64,000 bases of DNA. Source: Mycobacterium barrassiae (GTDB lineage: Bacteria > Actinomycetota > Actinomycetes > Mycobacteriales > Mycobacteriaceae). Both the position numbers and the translations under genes were made by a program. This document shows positions 11,916 through 64,000 of this stretch, piece after piece. Location: contig NZ_JACKUK010000029.1 of the NCBI RefSeq assembly GCF_025822765.1, positions 329,412-393,411 of the forward strand, read 5' to 3'. The stretch's first letter is position 1; each line of letters starts with the position of its first letter. The notes beneath the pieces are model-generated. The model worked only from the letters and a program-made list of their open reading frames with translations, did not search any database and had not been told where the DNA came from.

Positions 11916-12698
11916 GTGTCGGACGGCGAACAGGCCAAGCCCCGACGGCGCCGCGGGCGTCGTCGCGGCCGACGCGCGGCAGGTCCCCCGGACGCCGAGG
12001 CCACACAGCCCGGCGGCACCCCCAACAGCGCCGACAACTCCGCCGTCCCAGGCGCGACGGACCAGCCCATCCCGCGCCCCAAACCCCAGAAGACCCGGCC
12101 ACGCCGCCCACCGGAGCGCCTGCGCACCGTGCACGAGACATCGGCCGGGGGCCTGGTCATCGACGGTATCGACGGGCCCAAGGACAACCAGGTGGCGGCG
12201 CTGATCGGCCGCACCGACCGCCGCGGCCGGATGCTGTGGTCGCTGCCCAAGGGCCACATCGAGCTCGGCGAGACCGCCGAGCAGACCGCCATCCGCGAGG
12301 TCGCCGAGGAAACCGGGATCCAGGGCAGCGTGCTCGCCGCGCTCGGCAGCATCGACTACTGGTTCGTCACCGAGGGGCGCCGCGTGCACAAGACCGTGCA
12401 CCATTACCTGATGCGATTCCTGGACGGCGAGCTGTCTGACGAGGATCTCGAGGTCAGCGAGGTCGCTTGGGTGCCGCTGAGGGAGCTGCCGTCCCGGTTG
12501 GCCTACGCCGACGAACGCCGACTCGCCGAAGTGGCCGGTGAGCTCATCGACAAACTGCACGCGGACGGCCCCGCCGCGTTGCCGCCGCTGCCACGGACCT
12601 CGCCACGGCGGCGGGCCCAGACGCACTCGCACACCCGCAACCGTCGTCCCGACGAAAAGACAACTCGGCGGACGAACGGCTGCGGCCAAGGGCCGTGA
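11916..12698 (+). CDS. mutT4: Nudix hydrolase MutT4
   Basis: A Nudix-family pyrophosphohydrolase of 260 residues. The Nudix box [20 protein letters not shown] matches GX5EX7REUXEEXGU and holds the metal-binding glutamates. A basic Arg-rich N-terminal tail precedes the domain and a basic tail follows it. It matches M. tuberculosis Rv3908. The GTG at 11916 (VSDGEQAK) is the start by homology; an in-frame codon at 11874 would add residues that look noncoding. It is first in a plus-strand cluster, and its stop overlaps the next start in a GTGA arrangement, indicating translational coupling. Confidence 0.93.
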
Positions 12699-15187
12699 CC
12701 ACCGCGGAGTCGCGCATGTCGCCTGCGGCAGTCGCGCGCCTGCTTCTCGCGATCGGGATGTTGGCGCTGTTCATGGTTCCGCTCGCGAATCCCCGCGACG
12801 CCGCCGGGCAGCCGGGCGTCACCCCGTTTCTGACCGTGCACATCGACCGGGTCACCCCCGAGGTCGTGACCACGACCAGCGACCCGATCGTCACCGTCAC
12901 CGGCACCGTGGAGAACGTCGGCGACCGGCCCGTCCGCGACGTAATGGTGCGCCTCGAGGACACCGGGGCGGTGACGTCGTCGGCGGGGCTGCGGACCAAT
13001 CTCACAGGCAACGTCGACCAATTCGAACCCGTCGCCCAATTCATCGCTCTCGCACCGGAATTGGATCGCGGCGACGCGGTCCCGTTCGTGCTGTCCTACC
13101 CGCTGCGATCCGCGCAGGACCCGTCGCTGGGCATCGAGGAACCCGGCGTCTACCCGTTGATGGTCAACGTCAACGGCACACCCGACTACGGAGAGCCGGC
13201 CCGTCTCGACGCCGCCCGCTTCCTGCTACCGGTGCTCGGCGTCCCGCCCGATCCGGATTCCGACGAAAGCGACGCCGTGACGGCCGTGGTTCCCGCGGAC
13301 ACGTCCAGACCGGTCGGCCTGACCGTGCTGTGGCCGATCGCCGACAAGCCCCGGCTGGCCGCGGGGGCACCGGGCGGCACCACACCCGTCCGGCTCATCG
13401 ACGACGACCTCGCCACCTCGCTGGCCGCGGGCGGCCGGCTGGACAGCCTGCTGTCGGCCGTCGAGTTCGCGACCGGCCCACAGGTCGATCCCGACGGGCA
13501 TGTCCGGCAGGCGACGTGTCTGGCCGTCGACCCCGACCTGCTCGTCACCGTCAATGCGATGACGGGCGGCTACGTCGTCAACGACGGTCCCGACGCCGGG
13601 CCGGGCACACCGACGCACCCCGGCGCCGGGCAGGACGCCGCCGTGGCCTGGCTCAACCGCCTGCGGGGGCTCGCCAAACAGATGTGTGTCGTGCCGACCA
13701 CGTACGCGCAGGCCGACCTCGACGCGCTGCACCGGGTCGGGGATCCCGGCCTGTCGGGAATCGCCGTCAAGGGCGCGGGCGACATCGCCGACCAGATCCT
13801 CGGCGTCGCGTCGGTGCGCGGCGCCAACCTGATCGGCGACGGGCCCCTGACCGGGTCGGCGGTGCAGCTGCTGTCCCAGCAAGGCCAGACGGTCGCGATC
13901 GGCGCCGCCGAGGTGACGGCGGACTCCGAGTCCGACGGATCCAGCCCGACGCAGGGACCCGCGGACCTCAAGCCGGTGCGCTACACACCCGACGTCGCCG
14001 CGGCGCCGTTCGACCCCGCGGTGGGGGCAGCGCTGGCCGGAGTGGGCTCCGACCCGGTGTCGCCGTCATACCTCGACCCGTCCCTCAACGTGCCGCTGCA
14101 GCACGCGTCGGAGGTGGCGCGTAGGCAGGACGCCCTCGGTGCGCTGATGTGGCGAGCGCTGCGACCCGACATCGAACCCCGGACCGAGATCGTCATGCCG
14201 CCGTTGACGTGGAGCGCCCAACCGGCGGATGTGCAGGCGGTCCTGACCGCGACGGCCACCATGATCAACGCCGGGCTGGCACGCCCGCGGCCGCTCACCG
14301 AGGTGATCGCGGACGGCAACGCGGTACCGCCGCAACGAATCGCGCCGCTGCCCGAGAACGACCTGGGCGATCCGCGCGGGCGATTCGACGACGCCGTCGT
14401 CTCCGGCATCGCCGCCGTCACCGGCCGGCTGTGGGGTCTGACCGCTGCGTTGACCACCGACGAGCGCACCGGCCTCACCGGCTACGGGTACACCGCACCG
14501 CTGCGGGAGGACTCGCTGCGCGCCTTGAGCCAGTCGGTGCCGCCGGATGCCCGCAATGGCCTTGCGCAGCAACGGCTTACCACGGTGGGCCGCACAGTCG
14601 ACGATCTTTTCAAGGCCGTCACCATCGTCAACCCCGGCGGCTCGTACACGCTGGCGACCGAACGCAGCCCGCTGCCGCTCGCGCTGCGCAACAACCTGCC
14701 TGTGCCGATCCGGGTACGCCTGGACGTCGACGCTCCCCCGGGCATGTCGGTCACGGACATGGGTGTCATCGAACTGCCGCCCGGCTTCCTGCCGCTGCGG
14801 GTGCCGATCGAGGTGCACTTCACCCAGCGCGTCGCCGTCGACGTCGCGCTGCGCACCGAGAACGGCTTGCCTCTGGGCGAAGACGTGCGGTTGTCGGTGC
14901 ACTCCAACGCCTACGGCAAGGTGCTCTTCTTCATCACCCTGACCGGGGGCGCGATCCTGGCGCTGCTGGTCGGACGTCGGCTGTGGCATCGGTTCCGCGG
15001 CCAGCCCGACCGCGCCGACCTCGACCGGCCGGATCCGCTGGAGGTCGCGTTGCGCTTCGACGAGGAAGTCGACAAGGACGTCGACAAGGACGTCGAGAGG
15101 GACACCGACGCCGACGCGTCCCTCACCCGGACCCCTGATCCCGGCCCAGGCCGAATCGCCGGTTCCACCGGCCCAGGCGACAAATGA
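12695..15187 (+). CDS. DUF6049-like membrane-anchored protein (Rv3909-like)
   Basis: An 830-residue protein with an N-terminal hydrophobic segment (about residues 13-30, signal or anchor) and a large predicted extracytoplasmic region. A single membrane segment lies near residue 750 ([16 protein letters not shown]), followed by a short acidic cytosolic tail with repeated DVDKD units. By position it is Rv3909, always found directly before murJ in mycobacteria. It starts with GTG in a GTGA overlap with mutT4 and ends in an ATGA overlap with murJ, so all three are coupled. A role supporting lipid II flipping or wall assembly is inference from context only. Confidence 0.85.
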
Positions 15188-58122: not shown

Positions 58123-58358
58123 GTCACCGCCCGCCTCACTCGTCGTTGGTCACAGTCCTACCCGCGATGGTCCTCCACCGCGTGTCGCCTGGCCACAGGT
58201 GTTGGTTGAATGGTATCGGCCCAGTACGGCGCAGCGGGACCAACGGAACTGTGAGAATCCGATCGCGCCAGGTCAGCACACCGGTGCGCGGGCACCGGCG
58301 CCGACCTCAGCGGTTGGGGAGCCAGCCGCCGTGCGTGATAGTCTTCCCCGGTTGTTGG

Positions 58359-58440
58359 GGCGAGTGGCGGAATGGCAGACGCGCTGGCTTCAGGTGCCAG
58401 TGTCCTTCGGGACGTGGGGGTTCAAGTCCCCCTTCGCCCA
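58359..58440 (+). tRNA. leuT: tRNA-Leu (CAG)
   Basis: An 82-base class II tRNA with a long variable arm. The acceptor is GGGCGAG/TTCGCCC, the anticodon arm CTGGC/GCCAG with loop TTCAGGT (anticodon CAG), the variable-arm stem GTCC/GGAC, and the T-arm GGGGG TTCAAGT CCCCC. CCA is not encoded. It is a frequent kind of integration target, and an accessory region starts after it. Confidence 0.97.
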
Positions 58441-58766
58441 CAATGAGCGGTTCTACGAACTGCGACCGCAAAGGTCACGAACCAGAAATGGTTCGTGACC
58501 TTTGTGTTTGGTGAGTAGATCTTGATCTGCATGACCTCCGGCTGGGCGTGGGAAGAGCACCCAAAAATGTCCCTTTCGGTCGTTTCTCTGTCTGAGTCCG
58601 AGCGCCCCAGCCACACCGGCGTTCTGATCGCCCAGCACTCGATGACGGAGTATCGATATACAGTTCCGTCCGATGTTCGTCCCCGGCGAGATTCAAGTCG
58701 TCCGTTGCCGGCCGGGCTTCGATGCGATCAGCGATGTACTCGACCCGGCGGTGCCAGGAGGATCTG
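58441..58766. other. intergenic region between tRNA-Leu and the island gene
   Basis: This 326-base stretch contains the terminator at 58470-58503. I see no convincing gene, promoter or tRNA-end duplication in the rest. Confidence 0.5.
58470..58503 (+). terminator. strong intrinsic terminator after tRNA-Leu
   Basis: A perfect 14-bp stem (AAAGGTCACGAACC at 58470-58483 and its complement at 58490-58503) with the 6-base loop AGAAAT, followed by a T-rich GTGTTTGG. It is unusually canonical for this kind of genome. Confidence 0.8.
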
Positions 58767-61586
58767 ATGGTCAGCGACTACCCACGCGGCTCCGAATGGC
58801 GCAAGTGGGATCTTCACCTGCACGCGCCCGGAACAAAACTTAACGACGGATACACACGTAAAAACGGCCGACCCGACCTTGAGCAGTTCTGTCAGATCGT
58901 CCACGATTCCGACGTGGCAGTTATTGCCGTCACCGACTACTTCTCCTTGGATGGCTACTTTGATGTCCGAGAGAAGTACTCCGCGCTATACCCGCGCGAC
59001 AGCCTACTCATACTGCCTAATCTGGAACTGCGGCTTTCTGTCGCGGTGAACCGACAAGACCAGGAAGCCAACGTACACCTAATCTTTCGGCCCTCGCTGA
59101 CAAGAGCCGATGCCACCAAGTTTCTCAGTCATTTGAAAACTGCGGCGACCGTTGGCGCCAGCAGGGCAGTGACGTGCGCCGACTTGAGCAGCAGAGAGGA
59201 CTTCGAGAGCGCGAGTGTTTCGATCGACGCCATAGTCGGCGCGATCAAGGCCACTTTCGGGGACCACTCCGCCGTCCCATCGCTCCGGCAGGAGCACCTA
59301 CTCGTCGTCGCGTCCGCGAAGGGCGACGGAATCCGCCCCGGAGGCAGCGGGATTCAGCGCAAGAAGCTGTTGACTGACGAGATCGACAAGTTCTCGGACG
59401 CATTCTTTGCCAATGCAGGTTCACGAGATCACTTCCTACGTACAGACCGCCTAGAAACCAACGAGCTCATCGCTCCCAAGCCGGTCTTCGATGGGTCCGA
59501 CGCCCACAGCTTCGAAGACCTCAAGATCGGACTCGGCAAGCAGGTCACAGAAGAGGGACGTCAGCGGAACGTCACCTGGATCAAGGCCGACCCGACTTAC
59601 ACGGGCCTGCTCCAGACGCTCATAGAGCCAGCTGATCGCGTTGCGATGCAGGCCACAGAGCCCGACTTCAAAGAGCCATACAAGGTGATCTCGGAGGTGC
59701 GGTTCACGGGGGCCGATGATTTCCCCTCCGAGGTGCAGTTCAACGGCAATCTCAACGCAGTTATCGGTAGCCGTTCGTCAGGGAAATCAGCATTGCTGGC
59801 CTTCATCGCTCACGCAGTTGACCCGACTGAAACAGTTCGTATTCAGATGGAAGCGGCCGGCGCTACAGACGCGAAGTCCGTTGGCCCGGCCGCAGGGTTT
59901 TCCTGGGCGGACGTTTCCGACACATCTTGCGAGGTGGTGTGGGCTTCTGGCGCCAACACAACAGGTAAGGTCATCTATGTTCCGCAGAACTCGCTCTACA
60001 CATTGAGCGAGCAACCCGACGTGATTACCAGGAAGATCGCACCCGCTCTGTTCAGGGCGTACCCGGCGATCAAGACCGCCTATGACGGCGCCATGGCGAC
60101 AGTGGCTTCCGTCAACAGTGACATAAAGAGCGCAGTTGACGAGTGGTTTGAGATTGCTGGTCGTATTGAGCTTCGAAATAGAGAGATTTCGGATCTGGGA
60201 GACAAGGCGGCGATTGCCGTCGAACGCGATCGGCTGCAAGCGGAGATCGACCGGATCAAGATAACGTCGGAACTCACTGATGACGAGGTGGCGAAGTTTC
60301 AAGAAGTCGCCCAAAGTCTCGACGCAGCGGGAGTTCGCCTGACGGAAATCGAGGTTGAATCTAGTCAGTTGGCCCAATACGTCGCCGTGTCGGATGCGAC
60401 CGTTGCCGGGGTCCACCCGCAAACAGTCGAGGTGAATATCAATGTGCGGCCGTCAGTAGGTGAAGTGCCTGAGGCAATTTCCGCACGTATCGAGGACGTT
60501 AAAGCCGTTGCAGCCGAGGAACTTGCCGCAAAGATCGAGGCGCTGCTGGTCAACGCGGCGAATGACTTGAACGTCGAAAGAGCTAGTCTGCGTGCGCTAA
60601 TTCATTCCACCACCGAGGACAATGCCGACCTCATCGCCAAACACGAAGCCAACGAAGAACTATCAACTGTTGTCGCCGAACATAAGAAGCAAGTAACGAG
60701 CCTAGACGAGATCACTAAGCGCGAAAATGCGCGCGAAAGATTGGTGCTCGATCAGTCGGCCGTTGCAGACAAGGTGATCAAGGGAATCGCTGACCGAAGT
60801 GAAGCTCTAAGGGCTTTGGAGGAAGCATTCAACGCGGATGATCGAGTCCTCAGTGACTTGAAGTTCGGAATCGAGAGCGCCGTCCCAGCCGATGTTGTCG
60901 AGCACGCTTCTCTCGGTTTCAACCAGCGCAGCGTCAACGAGTACATCAAAAACAAGGGTGAGTCGGTGGATTACGAGGGCGCCCAGGCTGACCCGAAGAA
61001 GTTTCTCGAAGCTCTGCGTGACGGCAAGGTGAACCTCAATAAACGCTATGAGCCGAGTAGCGTCGCCGCTGATGTCCTCACTCTCACAAAGGAAGTTCGC
61101 TTCTCGGCCGAGTTGGACTCCGACCGTATTGGCGGCTTCAGCCGATCGTCGATGACACCAGGGAAACAGGCGCTCTTCGCCTTGACGCTGATTCTGAACG
61201 AGTCGCAGGAGCCATGGCCATTGCTAATAGACCAACCCGAGGATGACCTCGATAGCCGTTCAATCTATGACACGATCGTGCCGTACTTGACGAAACGCAA
61301 ACGCGAGCGGCAGATCATCATGGTCAGCCACAACGCGAACCTTGTCATCGGAGCCGATTCTGAACAGGTAATAGTGGCAAACAGGCACGGCAATGACCGG
61401 AGGAATAAGGACGGTCGAACCTTCGAGTACTACACCGGCGCGCTCGAAGATTCTCGTCCGCTTAATGAAGCAAGTGCTACAGCCTTGGGGCGTTTCGGCA
61501 TCAGAGAACATGCCTGCGAGATTCTCGACGGTGGCGAAGAAGCGTTCCGAAAGCGTCGCGAGAAGTATAAGATTCGACAATCGTGA
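58767..61586 (+). CDS. PHP domain-SMC-like AAA/ABC ATPase, probable defence protein
   Basis: A 939-residue fusion. The N-terminus is a PHP-type metal phosphoesterase: DLHLHAPGTK (HxH at about residues 16-18), AVTDYF, LPNLELRL and SDAHS (Asp245, His247). An SMC/RecN-like ATPase follows: Walker A GSRSSGKSA at about residues 334-342, a long charged coiled-coil (about 450-730), the signature-like SSMTPGKQALFAL, Walker B PLLIDQPEDDLD near residue 817, and the switch VSHNANLVIG. ATG at 58767 has AGGAGG 5 bases upstream. This resembles proteins called TrlF family or Ppl (PHP-ATPase) in defence surveys, from memory. The gene is AT-richer than its neighbours, suggesting transfer. Confidence 0.82.
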   Translation: MVSDYPRGSEWRKWDLHLHAPGTKLNDGYTRKNGRPDLEQFCQIVHDSDVAVIAVTDYFSLDGYFDVREKYSALYPRDSLLILPNLELRLSVAVNRQDQEANVHLIFRPSLTRADATKFLSHLKTAATVGASRAVTCADLSSREDFESASVSIDAIVGAIKATFGDHSAVPSLRQEHLLVVASAKGDGIRPGGSGIQRKKLLTDEIDKFSDAFFANAGSRDHFLRTDRLETNELIAPKPVFDGSDAHSFEDLKIGLGKQVTEEGRQRNVTWIKADPTYTGLLQTLIEPADRVAMQATEPDFKEPYKVISEVRFTGADDFPSEVQFNGNLNAVIGSRSSGKSALLAFIAHAVDPTETVRIQMEAAGATDAKSVGPAAGFSWADVSDTSCEVVWASGANTTGKVIYVPQNSLYTLSEQPDVITRKIAPALFRAYPAIKTAYDGAMATVASVNSDIKSAVDEWFEIAGRIELRNREISDLGDKAAIAVERDRLQAEIDRIKITSELTDDEVAKFQEVAQSLDAAGVRLTEIEVESSQLAQYVAVSDATVAGVHPQTVEVNINVRPSVGEVPEAISARIEDVKAVAAEELAAKIEALLVNAANDLNVERASLRALIHSTTEDNADLIAKHEANEELSTVVAEHKKQVTSLDEITKRENARERLVLDQSAVADKVIKGIADRSEALRALEEAFNADDRVLSDLKFGIESAVPADVVEHASLGFNQRSVNEYIKNKGESVDYEGAQADPKKFLEALRDGKVNLNKRYEPSSVAADVLTLTKEVRFSAELDSDRIGGFSRSSMTPGKQALFALTLILNESQEPWPLLIDQPEDDLDSRSIYDTIVPYLTKRKRERQIIMVSHNANLVIGADSEQVIVANRHGNDRRNKDGRTFEYYTGALEDSRPLNEASATALGRFGIREHACEILDGGEEAFRKRREKYKIRQS

Positions 61587-61731: not shown

Positions 61732-63906
61732 CTACGTCTTCGAGATTTCGTCCACGATTCTCATTGTCTCGACCGCTACCGTGGTGACCTTGGCTATGAG
61801 ACTAAGAATGTATCTGGGGTCGTCGTGCTCGTCGCACCAGTCGTTCGGATCGTTGACAATGCCGGACGCCTTGTCGGTTTTCACCATGTATCGATCGATG
61901 ATCCAGGCCAACGCCGATCGAGAGCCAATCACGTATCGATCAGCGACCTCGGGGATGCCTGCGATAGTCACCTTCGGGCTGTAGATCAGAGTGGTGACGT
62001 CGTCGACGCTCTTGCCGGTCTCGGGATCCTTCTTCTTCGCCCACCTCATCTTGGTGACCCGCCACGTCTCACGGTCCTCGGGATTGGCGCCGGGCTTGAG
62101 CTGCACCTCGACCGGGTACGGCTCTGCACTCTCATAGCCGATGTGCAGGTCGCTCAGGACGCGACCTGCCGCTTTGAGTTGCGTAAATCGTTGCTCGGAT
62201 TTCGGTATTGGGATCCGAGGGAGCATCCTCTTCAGGTCCGCGGCGTAGTTCTCGCGGTAGTCGGGGTCGTGCAGCAGGCCGTAGACGTAGAAGAAAATCT
62301 CGTCCTTGGTGACCTGGCCGCCGATCGCCTCACGGTAAGTCACCAGGATTTCGTCAGTGATGTTGTCGAGGCGGCGGTATCCAAATTCGTCGACCTCGCC
62401 GCTGCCGGTGTCCAGCGCGAGGGCGCCATCATCGGGGTCGGCCTTATCGTAAGTCCAGCGAGGAAAGTACTGGCCGGGGTTCCCCGCACCTCCCAGTGTC
62501 AGGTTCGGGATAGCGGAAGTCATCAGCGCGCTGAATGGTGCTCCTGCACTGCGGTCTGATAGCCAGATGCCAACATTGCGGTGCGATTGTGTTGGAAAGA
62601 TTGTCGGTAGCTGATAGACGCGCTCGAGAAGCGCTTTGTCGAAGTAGACCGCGTGCTTGCAGAACGGGCGATAGCTTCCGATCCGAACAGCGTTGGCTTT
62701 GAACTCATATCGTGCCCGACGGGCGAAGTCTCTCTTGGAGTTCGTTGTCCAGCTGAAAAGTCGCGTTGTTATCGTGGGTTGCGGATCTAACGTCGAATTG
62801 GCACCGGCGACCATACTTGCCCGGTCGATCTCATCGTTGTAGTACGAAATTGAGGTGCGCATGTTCTCAAGAACCTTCGCCGACGAAAAGTTGTAAACCC
62901 ATGCGTCGCGCCCAGAATTGATCCCCTGCGAGTATGTCTTGAACACTCGCAGTGCGGTCACCGGATTTGACTTGTCGCCGATTGCCGGCCACCCCGAGAA
63001 GTCATCGCTGCGTTGACTGACCCAGTCACCGTGCTCGTTTGGCGTGACTGGCCTCCAATCCACCGAGTCCAGATCGCTACCCGCAATGATCTCCAATTTC
63101 CGCTCTCGGGTTAGGTAGTCACCGATGTCTCGGTAGGAGATCGCGCAAGGCCCGTTGTTGGAAGGATTCTTCACGCCGATGAAGATGGCCACGGTATTCC
63201 GGCTGCCGGAGCCAAACACCTTGCCGCCCTCCTTCCGCGAGAGCGCGCCCCCAGTGCGTTGGTTCCCGCGCAAGTTGTAGATGTACATGCGGCTGTACTC
63301 GTCCGCTAGGGACAGACGGACACCGTCGGCAGTGTTGCCATCAATCCAGCCGCCGTTGGAAACGAACGCAACCACTCCATGGTCACCGATCCGGTCCGTG
63401 GCCCATCGGAATGCTCGAAGATATGAGTCGTAAAGGCTGTTCTTATTGGTCGCGGTAGATCGTTTGGCATAGGTGTCACCGACTCGCGAGTCCAGCGTCG
63501 GATACGCGAGGTTCGCATTGTCATCGTCGACGTTTGCCTGCCGGAGAGAGTAGGGCGGATTTCCGATGATTACGTGAATTGGTGCCGCGAGCTGTTTGAT
63601 GATGCGGGAGTTGTTCTGCGGGAACATCTCCGTGTCCATTGAGTCGTGAGACTCGGTGATCTGGAAGGTATCGGCAAGCACGATGCCCTCGAACGGGCTG
63701 TACTCCGCCTTCGTGAGTGCGTGGTAGGTGGTCTCGATGTTTACCGCGGCGATGTAGTAGGCGAGCAGCATGATCTCGTTGGCGTGCAACTCGTTTGCGT
63801 ATTTCCGGGCCAGGTCTTCTGGGCGGACGAGACCCGACTGCATCAGTCGGGTGATGAAGGTGCCAGTCCCCGTAAACGTTATGCGCTGTATTTGGGCGTG
63901 TCTCAC
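61732..63906 (-). pseudogene. 5'-truncated type ISP-like restriction-modification methyltransferase
   Basis: A 724-residue frame corresponding to the methyltransferase and target-recognition half of a single-polypeptide type ISP (LlaGI-like) enzyme. It has the SAM-motif remnant FTGTGTFITRLMQSGLV at residues 11-27, HANEIMLLAYYIAAVNIE, the catalytic NPPY at about residues 115-118, and the C-terminal SALAWIIDRYMV typical of the family. Complete enzymes begin with nuclease and helicase domains and have DPFTGTG here. In this sequence DP is replaced by IT, only ten residues precede it, and a stop follows upstream in frame. I infer a deletion or recombination junction near 63890, so it is probably inactive. 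Confidence 0.65.
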
Positions 63907-64000
63907 TCGGATCCATGCGCCACCCCGTTACAGTGCCCGCAACCCTGACTACAGAAGGGCCGTTGAGGGGGACGCTTCCGGTGGATTTGTACTTCGCTGA

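Follow-up and report, generated by a model that had tools for sequence, protein, structure and literature searches.

A TrlF-family gene beside a tRNA-Leu in Mycobacterium barrassiae and its possible role in phage defence

The window, a stretch of 64,000 nucleotides from the genome of Mycobacterium barrassiae, encodes a protein that unites a PHP-type domain with an SMC-like ATPase in a single chain, as indicated by the TrlF profile, motifs and a structural model. The locus raises the question of what such a protein does for its host. A preliminary description proposed a phage-defence protein whose ATPase senses the phage and switches on the PHP hydrolase, and considered the mechanism undescribed in mycobacteria. 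The balance of probability tips modestly towards a single-gene, horizontally moving phage-defence protein of the TrlF family that acts like Ppl. The gene occupies exactly the coordinates first given, 58767-61586 on the forward strand with 939 residues, and every motif first reported, from HxH/DxH to the H-loop, is found in the chain (counts refer to 78 aligned sequences):

58767..61586, forward strand: TrlF-family gene P0001, 939 aa (ORF translation without stops; TrlF profile)
58756..58761, forward strand: ribosome-binding site AGGAGG of the TrlF gene, 5 nt before the ATG (sequence)
58767..59651, forward strand: PHP-type domain, about residues 1-295, boundary approximate (motifs; Foldseek matches 7ug9, 9etk and PolC)
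58815..58823, forward strand: HxH, H17-L-H19 (kept in 78/78)
59499..59507, forward strand: DxH, D245-A-H247 (D245 in 78/78, H247 in 77/78)
59766..59789, forward strand: Walker A GSRSSGKS, residues 334-341 (motif inspection, alignment)
60063..60836, forward strand: coiled coil lacking a zinc hook, about residues 433-690 (AlphaFold model; Cys positions)
61149..61169, forward strand: signature-like SMTPGKQ, residues 795-801 (motif; G799 in 78/78)
61221..61253, forward strand: Walker B and D-loop LLIDQPEDDLD, residues 819-829 (motif inspection, alignment)
61329..61331, forward strand: H-loop H855 (76/78)

Judged by its profile match, the protein is a full-length member of the known NCBI TrlF family of AAA-like ATPases, scoring 493.5 bits against NF045780 (cut-off 350) with residues 7-935 aligned to positions 1-944 of the 944 in the profile. 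The first proposal needs correcting here, since the protein belongs to a named family. Because the profile reaches residue 935 of 939, a separate C-terminal domain, such as the one that holds the Arg-Glu-His triad of the anticodon nucleases PrrC and RloC, is not seen. In the AlphaFold model (mean pLDDT 88), long helices at 433-535 and 569-689 form the coiled coil. Pfam matches at E≤0.1 are limited to SMC_N and AAA_21, and the PHP family itself (PF02811) has no match at this threshold. The domain is assigned to PHP from three other lines: its metal motifs, the profiles of TrlF and Ppl, and the resemblance that Foldseek finds to RNase AM's PHP domain (7ug9, rank 41, E 1.7e-4, TM-score 0.63 by target length and 0.16 by full-length query). 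An alignment (hhalign) of the PHP profile with the corresponding domain of the genome's own DnaE1 is weak, with a probability of 2.2%, and this counts against Ppl-like defence. Foldseek also matches the model to SMC heads (5xei, E 3.3e-9) and to Wadjet and Rad50 chains, with full-chain TM-scores to SMC proteins of just 0.17-0.21 by query length. Single-sequence searches at E≤0.01 retrieve no solved relative of the window protein or of the Ppl-like protein L085. The best 60 of 77 chains in a profile search of solved structures are SMC, Rad50, AriA, PtuA, other ATPases and unrelated coiled-coil proteins, with no PHP-ATPase structure among them.

Several defence proteins had been named as comparable systems. 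OLD-like anatomy is ruled out by the lack of a Toprim match in Pfam (E≤0.1), and RloC-like anatomy by the lack of a CxxC zinc hook, the only cysteines standing at 42, 137, 388 and 917. Ppl is likewise rejected as a family name: NF042955 gives 86.6 bits, far under its cut-off of 1000. Kinship between TrlF and Ppl is upheld by hhalign, in which a 66-sequence TrlF profile aligns with L085 over 773 columns (99.9%, E 2.6e-36); since L085 reaches 406.3 of the 1000 bits of the Ppl cut-off, this comparison is with a Ppl-like protein and not a certified Ppl, a point that also weakens the case for Ppl-like defence. Two sets of relatives were drawn up: A1, with 65 of 77 (omitting L054, L059, L066, L068, L070, L071, L074, L075, L076, L080, L081 and L084), and A4, with 42.

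Conservation was read from an alignment of the window protein with 77 relatives, L016, L061 and L079 having been omitted as short from the 80 extracted. H17, H19, E87, D245, G334, G339 and K340 are invariant (78/78), D57 occurs in 72 and H104 in 67 of the 78. On this alignment the motifs are no chance match, because metal and ATPase residues alike are near-invariant. Nine residues bind metal in the PHP superfamily, in the order H H D/H H E H C/H D/N H (Table 1 in the available part of PMC3666897). By sequence matching, H17, H19, E87, H104, D245 and H247 fit this series, the third position may correspond to N26 or D27, the fourth is Tyr58 and no counterpart of the seventh is found. Active PHP exonucleases carry a full trinuclear site, according to the available parts of two sources (PMC3666897; PMC5636811). 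Such a site is not seen in the aligned window protein, because motif II reads TDY instead of TDH and no histidine stands at the seventh ligand. This variant, in which Tyr replaces the motif-II His and the seventh ligand has no aligned His, is shared by 67 of the 78 sequences, the window protein included. Persistence of the metal ligands across homologues, on which the first proposal depended, is found in part: the near clade retains HxH, E87 and DxH, but part of HxH or DxH is missing from 6 of the 11 other mycobacterial members that score above the TrlF cut-off.

The variant site and these losses count against Ppl-like defence. They would suit a PHP domain of little or no activity that binds nucleotides or metal as a regulator, leaving the ATPase to act alone on DNA. 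Shorter relatives without a PHP domain (609-654 aa) also fit this improbable alternative, as does the inactive PHP domain that E. coli Pol III keeps for stability (available part of PMC3666897). The invariance of HxH, E87 and D245, and the presence of H247 in all sequences except one, are however not expected of a purely structural domain. The site offers a good case for learning which PHP ligands nuclease action requires.

The surroundings of the gene were described as an AT-richer island beside a tRNA, and this setting is confirmed by GC bins and ARAGORN: GC content falls from 64-70% in the ten 1-kb bins before 58 kb to 55-61% in the six that follow. The relevant features are:

58358..58441, forward strand: tRNA-Leu (CAG), beside which the variable DNA starts (ARAGORN)
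58469..58504, forward strand: hairpin directly 3' of tRNA-Leu with 16-nt arms, probably its terminator (inverted repeat I4)
61732..63906, reverse strand: type ISP restriction-modification enzyme, C-terminal portion of 724 aa (PADLOC 919-1637 of 1646; Pfam Type_ISP_C)
63877..64000, no strand: a 124-nt stretch that recurs unchanged past a single N immediately outside the window, an assembly join and no biological feature (repeat comparison; the N appears as X)

The gene upstream of tRNA-Leu is common to six relatives. Downstream, the stretches fetched hold no gene common to all six, and only L118 and L122 share any. A second copy of the tRNA end, which would mark a far attachment site, is absent from the 12.4 kb searched, and a scan of the bacterium's own genome for such copies returned only a hairpin and another tRNA. 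The type ISP part is convergent with the TrlF gene. A relative of 1684 aa, placed the same way beside the TrlF gene of locus L006, matches it with 46% identity over residues 969-1672. The window TrlF gene adjoins an apparent type ISP remnant, with the assembly join at window position 64000, and lies outside any restriction-modification (R-M) operon. The contig ends 17.3 kb past the window, and beyond the window the same genome encodes an HKD-Snf2-type helicase, a type III R-M system, TIR and caspase proteins.

Relatives of TrlF occur at 306 places in the genome_contigs collection. The clade of the window protein is rich in actinobacteria and has TDY as motif II. Matches at E≤1e-10 are found in 509 plasmid records, not all of them necessarily TrlF, of which 15 cover more than 80% of the query and 352 are conjugative. 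The nearest plasmid relative, from Citricoccus, is 67.7% identical and also named TrlF. The TrlF profile places 12 of 396 same-genus genomes above its cut-off. A single-protein search recovered the gene in none of 36 other same-genus genomes; it is too insensitive, because G002, G030 and G035 among those 36 score above the TrlF cut-off. The gene is under purifying selection, with 0.75 synonymous and 0.17 nonsynonymous differences per site relative to Mycobacteroides sp. LB1. The conjugative plasmids and SMC/Rad50-like heads could be taken to mean that TrlF helps mobile elements to process DNA ends or repair DNA and has no part in defence. A recB-recD-TrlF row in Luteimonas (ORF start 25 nt after recD) and a convergent recD about 1.4 kb from TrlF in Halomonas agree with this idea. 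Sparse occurrence within the genus, kinship with the anti-phage protein Ppl and the defence genes nearby all argue against it, and it is regarded as very improbable.

Those defence neighbours are borne out by a PADLOC scan of mycobacterial neighbourhoods. At 1e-20, 114 neighbours of 11 TrlF genes (114 of 117 ORFs, the other three being TrlF genes) match 141 families, against 9 for 114 control genes (the first 114 of 125 ORFs, from 9 of the 11 genomes); these neighbourhoods come for the most part from distant members, with 17.6-24% identity in 10 of the 11 cases. Among the 25 of 141 families listed, the commonest is found in 3 of the 114 neighbour proteins. On an Enterobacter plasmid the TrlF gene adjoins an Abi gene, and on lactococcal pNP40 it lies about 4 kb or less from two DNA methyltransferases and an Abi gene. 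Some copies weigh against Ppl-like defence: of two close relatives, the one on the Citricoccus plasmid has no annotated defence gene within 12 kb and that of Mycobacteroides sp. LB1 has no R-M gene nearby, and a Staphylococcus epidermidis plasmid copy has no annotated defence neighbour except the toxin of a toxin-antitoxin pair.

The recurrent linkage of TrlF loci to R-M genes is a useful new observation, genomic in kind. Type I, III or ISP R-M genes occur at 31 of 91 TrlF loci, 90 of which are distinct, L004 and L128 coming from one genome, and at 23 they lie less than 1.5 kb away in the same orientation (ORF starts at surveyed loci are mechanical). Gene orders include HsdM-HsdS-TrlF-HsdR and Mod-TrlF-Res. 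R-M genes thin out with distance from TrlF, their density dropping from 6.69 per 100 kb to 0.79 (89 loci). The linked state, labelled by hand from the 91-locus classification, changes 20 times on the TrlF tree, 16 of them forced by supported branches. Cluster names were given on sight, and profiles confirm this genome's copies and, in bulk, the mycobacterial ones. Counts of Mod and Res include this genome's own pair outside the window; the AlbA2-named cluster, which also holds HsdS-like proteins, is not counted as R-M.

This linkage would suit a PrrC-like guard, in which TrlF is silenced by or tuned to the neighbouring restriction enzyme and fires on phage anti-restriction proteins or DNA breaks, whereupon the PHP domain cuts host or phage RNA or DNA. 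PrrC provides the precedent (available part of PMC12707154), 8 of 72 RloC genes are R-M-linked (available part of PMC2610378), and the nearest solved PHP fold found by Foldseek is that of RNase AM. The guard explanation is unlikely: 60 of the 91 loci have no R-M gene within the analysed stretch, the linkage may reflect ordinary clustering in defence islands, the TrlF gene of the window faces a truncated type ISP gene tail to tail and lies outside an R-M operon, and a second nuclease domain is not seen in the protein. Another proposal, rather doubtful, makes TrlF proteins restriction-coupled second-strike nucleases. Type I, III and ISP enzymes would create ends, which the linked PHP-ATPase would recognise when nucleotide pools fall, degrading the fragments before phage repair rejoins them; repeated capture by R-M operons and recBD adjacency in two genomes would reflect this coupling. 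The window TrlF is possibly coupled to restriction. The recurrence of TrlF-like genes in restriction operons would tie restriction to a second nuclease in a way that can be tested directly.

In the favoured reading, Ppl-like defence, genomic position suggests an anti-phage role for TrlF, and nuclease activity, polarity and trigger are taken by analogy from Ppl. E. coli Ppl is a single-stranded DNA 3'-5' exonuclease that is released by nucleotide depletion together with 3'-OH ends, according to a review (PMC12904381), and in S. epidermidis phage resistance correlated with the presence of Ppl (available part of PMC13152194). The SMC/Rad50-like half of TrlF would bind ATP and probably DNA ends, and in a healthy cell would restrain the N-terminal PHP nuclease. 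Infection, through altered nucleotide pools and/or new DNA ends, may release the PHP domain to degrade nucleic acid, the likeliest target being DNA digested from its exposed ends, which would halt phage replication. TrlF-like genes are common, yet the literature search found no functional test of TrlF, the sole mechanism in print being that of its E. coli relative Ppl. The main text of the DefensePredictor paper contains no Ppl, PHP or TrlF, nor does that of another defence survey.

Among known systems, the restriction-linked anticodon nucleases PrrC and RloC resemble TrlF in coupling an ABC-type ATPase to a nuclease and in R-M linkage, RloC also having a coiled-coil insert (available part of PMC2610378), but TrlF has an N-terminal PHP domain in place of a C-terminal nuclease region and no zinc hook. 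The PHP structures that rank first among the Foldseek matches, 7ug9 and 9etk, are those of the RNase AM exonuclease; the likeness is one of fold, and the matched entries as listed have no ATPase. Chains of Wadjet (Jet), Lamassu (Lmu), SMC and Rad50 match the ATPase fold. These chains are parts of multi-subunit complexes and are not known to carry a PHP domain. At family level the window protein does not differ from TrlF (NF045780). It has TDY58 and no PAH, whereas the Ppl-like L085, the sole sequence compared on the side of Ppl (NF042955; PADLOC PDLC02208), has the TDH and PAH histidines. The best-matching stretch of the Ppl profiles is its C-terminal head, and PHP domain, Walker A, coiled coil and C-terminal head follow one another in the same order as in Ppl-like L085.

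The gene at issue encodes a protein of 939 residues and is an ordinary member of the automatically annotated TrlF family. The NCBIfam profile for the TrlF family AAA-like ATPase matches it over the entire profile with 493.5 bits (cut-off 350), whereas the Ppl profile reaches 86.6 bits of the required 1000 and Pfam places AAA_21 above its cut-off, SMC_N below its cut-off and no PHP domain. The profile searches proposed in the preliminary description, which had read the gene as a PHP phosphoesterase fused to an SMC-like ATPase in phage defense, thus bore out TrlF and neither Ppl nor Pfam's PHP. The open reading frame and the motifs it had listed are all present, as is the AT-richer stretch beside a tRNA, GC content being 55-61% in the six 1-kb bins that begin at 58 kb and 64-70% in the preceding ten.

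Features of the TrlF gene and protein
58358-58441: tRNA-Leu(CAG)
58767-61586, forward strand: TrlF open reading frame, stop-free translation of 939 residues
5 bases upstream of the TrlF ATG, forward strand: AGGAGG, from the sequence
Residues 17 and 19: HxH
Residues D57-Y58, E87 and H104: motif reading
Residues 245-247: D245-A-H247
Residues 334-341: Walker A
About residues 433-690: coiled coil of long helices, from the AlphaFold model
Residues 795-801: signature-like SMTPGKQ
Residues 819-829: Walker B
Residue 855: H855

An alternative in-frame ATG lies at 58722, but the one at 58767 is favored because it places RGSEWRKWDLH near the start of the protein, where relatives have it.

The AlphaFold model (mean pLDDT 88.0, pTM 0.70) matches SMC, Wadjet and Rad50 chains, with a full-chain TM by query of just 0.17-0.21 in the top ten. 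Its N-terminal part matches the PHP domain of RNase AM (7ug9, rank 41, TM 0.63 by target length) and also PolC. The PADLOC Ppl model matches best along the C-terminal head. The Ppl-like protein L085, itself under the Ppl cut-off (406.3 of 1000), aligns over 773 columns with a profile built from 66 TrlF sequences (99.9%, E 2.6e-36).

By sequence, H17, H19, E87, H104, D245 and H247 fit PHP metal ligands, while of the nine ligands (PMC3666897 Table 1) the third has N26 and D27 as ambiguous candidates, the fourth is Tyr58 and no seventh was found. A full trinuclear site of the kind that active PHP exonucleases have (PMC3666897; PMC5636811, on Mtb DnaE1) is therefore not seen. H17, H19, E87 and D245 are kept in 78/78 sequences, H247 in 77 and D57 in 72. 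Two subtypes can be told apart. The larger (67/78, this protein included) has Tyr58, with H104 and H247 each in 67/67, and lacks a His at column 181; its metal site, judged by the invariant ligands and by Tyr58 without the column-181 His, is conserved yet reduced. The second (11/78; L041, L051, L057, L058, L059, L063, L066, L074, L075, L080 and L081) has His58, carries its motif-III His at column 102 rather than 104 and, in 10 of the 11, a His at column 181, and is nearer to classical PHP sites. The expected conservation of metal ligands therefore holds among these relatives but not throughout the genus, since 6 of the 11 further mycobacterial proteins that pass the TrlF cut-off have lost part of HxH or DxH, although the alignment is rough for all but L092 (71.5%), the remaining ten being 17.6-24% identical to this protein. 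Such losses count against simple catalysis across the whole family. In five shorter mycobacterial reading frames (L100-L103 and L105, 609-654 aa), the match to the TrlF profile begins only at position 276-290, so they carry the ATPase but no PHP domain.

Relatives are encoded at 306 places in genome_contigs, 79 loci of which were kept, and 12 of the 396 genomes searched in the genus pass the TrlF cut-off, this one included. On the tree, Mycobacteroides sp. LB1 is nearest, followed by a Luteimonas (63%) and then Arthrobacter terrae; the nesting of a gammaproteobacterial sequence within actinobacterial ones speaks for horizontal transfer. Of the 509 plasmid records that match at E<=1e-10, 15 do so across 80% or more of the query and 352 are conjugative. 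Two of 50,697 phage records match; they measure 22 and 14 kb, and the 14-kb one matches only over the last 16%. Relative to the LB1 copy, synonymous differences are saturated at 0.75 per site and nonsynonymous ones stand at 0.17, which indicates that selection has maintained the protein.

The next gene, convergent with TrlF, encodes 724 residues from the C-terminal end of a type ISP enzyme. In Arthrobacter terrae (L006) a type ISP gene of 1684 residues occupies the same place and orientation beside TrlF (46% identical over the shared part). In this genome the homology stops where 124 bases are repeated exactly around a single N (window 63877-64000 and L002:6389-6637, L002 being a stretch of this genome reaching beyond the window). 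This repeat marks an assembly or scaffold join located at the last base of the window; the apparent break of the gene coincides with it.

Features beyond the join
Tyrosine recombinase, two more large proteins and a small one
HKD-Snf2-type helicase; DUF4391
Type III methyltransferase and restriction subunits
ThsB-like TIR protein; caspase-like protein

The recombinase (488 aa) and the proteins of 605, 688 and 215 aa that follow it (L002:6552-12308), the last three without a Pfam or NCBIfam match, form an arrangement like the Tn554-type recombinase trios. The TIR gene lies directly before the caspase-like one (L003:8684-10231, G000:C29, about 15-17 kb past the window end), a pair resembling that of type IV Thoeris. 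In the stretches compared from six relatives, no gene 3' of this tRNA-Leu is common to all, and only L118 and L122 share any (reading frames of at least 120 aa, E<=1e-20), marking the site as a place of variable DNA. In L118 (G002:C1:3909400-3929300), the last tRNA-Leu bases and the next 70 recur (84%) about 14.7 kb downstream, as expected for an element integrated there.

The 114 genes neighboring TrlF at 11 mycobacterial loci hit 141 PADLOC families at 1e-20, against 9 for 114 control genes from nine regions in nine of the 11 genomes; the comparison counts families, not proteins, and among the 25 of 141 listed the commonest occurs in 3/114 proteins. Restriction-modification (R-M) genes stand in 4/11 of these neighborhoods and 0/9 controls. 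Among 91 TrlF loci (90 distinct), neighbor clusters, mostly named on sight, comprise HsdM-like (16), type III Mod (11), HsdR (10), Res (6) and type ISP (3) genes, the Mod and Res counts taking in this genome's pair beyond the window. At least one R-M gene is found at 31/91 loci, on the same strand within 1.5 kb at 23, with several overlapping and with orders including HsdM-HsdS-TrlF-HsdR and Mod-TrlF-Res; the other 60 have none in the available stretch, which is short for many. The density of R-M genes is 6.69 per 100 kb within 2.5 kb of TrlF and drops to 0.79 between 7.5 and 10 kb (89 loci). Mapped onto a FastTree built from 79 sequences, the linked state requires 20 changes, of which well-supported branches force 16, and so was gained or lost many times; shuffled states average 22.6 changes, with 60/500 as low as 20.

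The window's own copy is not within an R-M operon, and positions 1-58000 hold no R-M gene. The LB1 copy has none nearby, no defense gene is annotated within 12 kb of the copy on the Citricoccus plasmid (67.7%), and the S. epidermidis plasmid copy has no annotated defense neighbor except a toxin-antitoxin toxin. pNP40 is a Lactococcus plasmid known for phage resistance; its TrlF gene (L145, record 12404-14944) has an Abi gene 3.7 kb away and, at about 4 kb, two genes for DNA cytosine methyltransferases. In Luteimonas lumbrici (L005:4328-12799) TrlF begins 25 nt past recD in a recB-recD row, and in Halomonas salicampi (L048:10001-20349) genes resembling recD and recB stand about 1.4 kb from it in convergent orientation.

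We found no paper on TrlF function in the literature searched, where Ppl was the only relative with a mechanism. E. coli Ppl is a single-stranded DNA 3'-5' exonuclease; NTPs bound to both domains hold it in check, and depletion of nucleotides plus 3'-OH ends releases it (review PMC12904381 section 5). In Staphylococcus epidermidis, the presence of Ppl is reported to correlate with resistance to phage (PMC13152194). By homology to Ppl we infer every step for TrlF, which would be a nucleotide-gated PHP nuclease working at exposed ends; given the RNase AM fold match, RNA is a possible target. What deserves specialist attention in TrlF is its linkage to R-M genes and its variant metal site. The linkage suggests either that restriction may supply DNA ends for TrlF or that TrlF may guard the restriction enzyme, as PrrC does. 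PrrC is reported to sit in a type IC locus and to fire on inhibition of its restriction enzyme, dTTP also mattering (PMC12707154 section 73), and RloC was reported as R-M-linked in 8/72 (PMC2610378).
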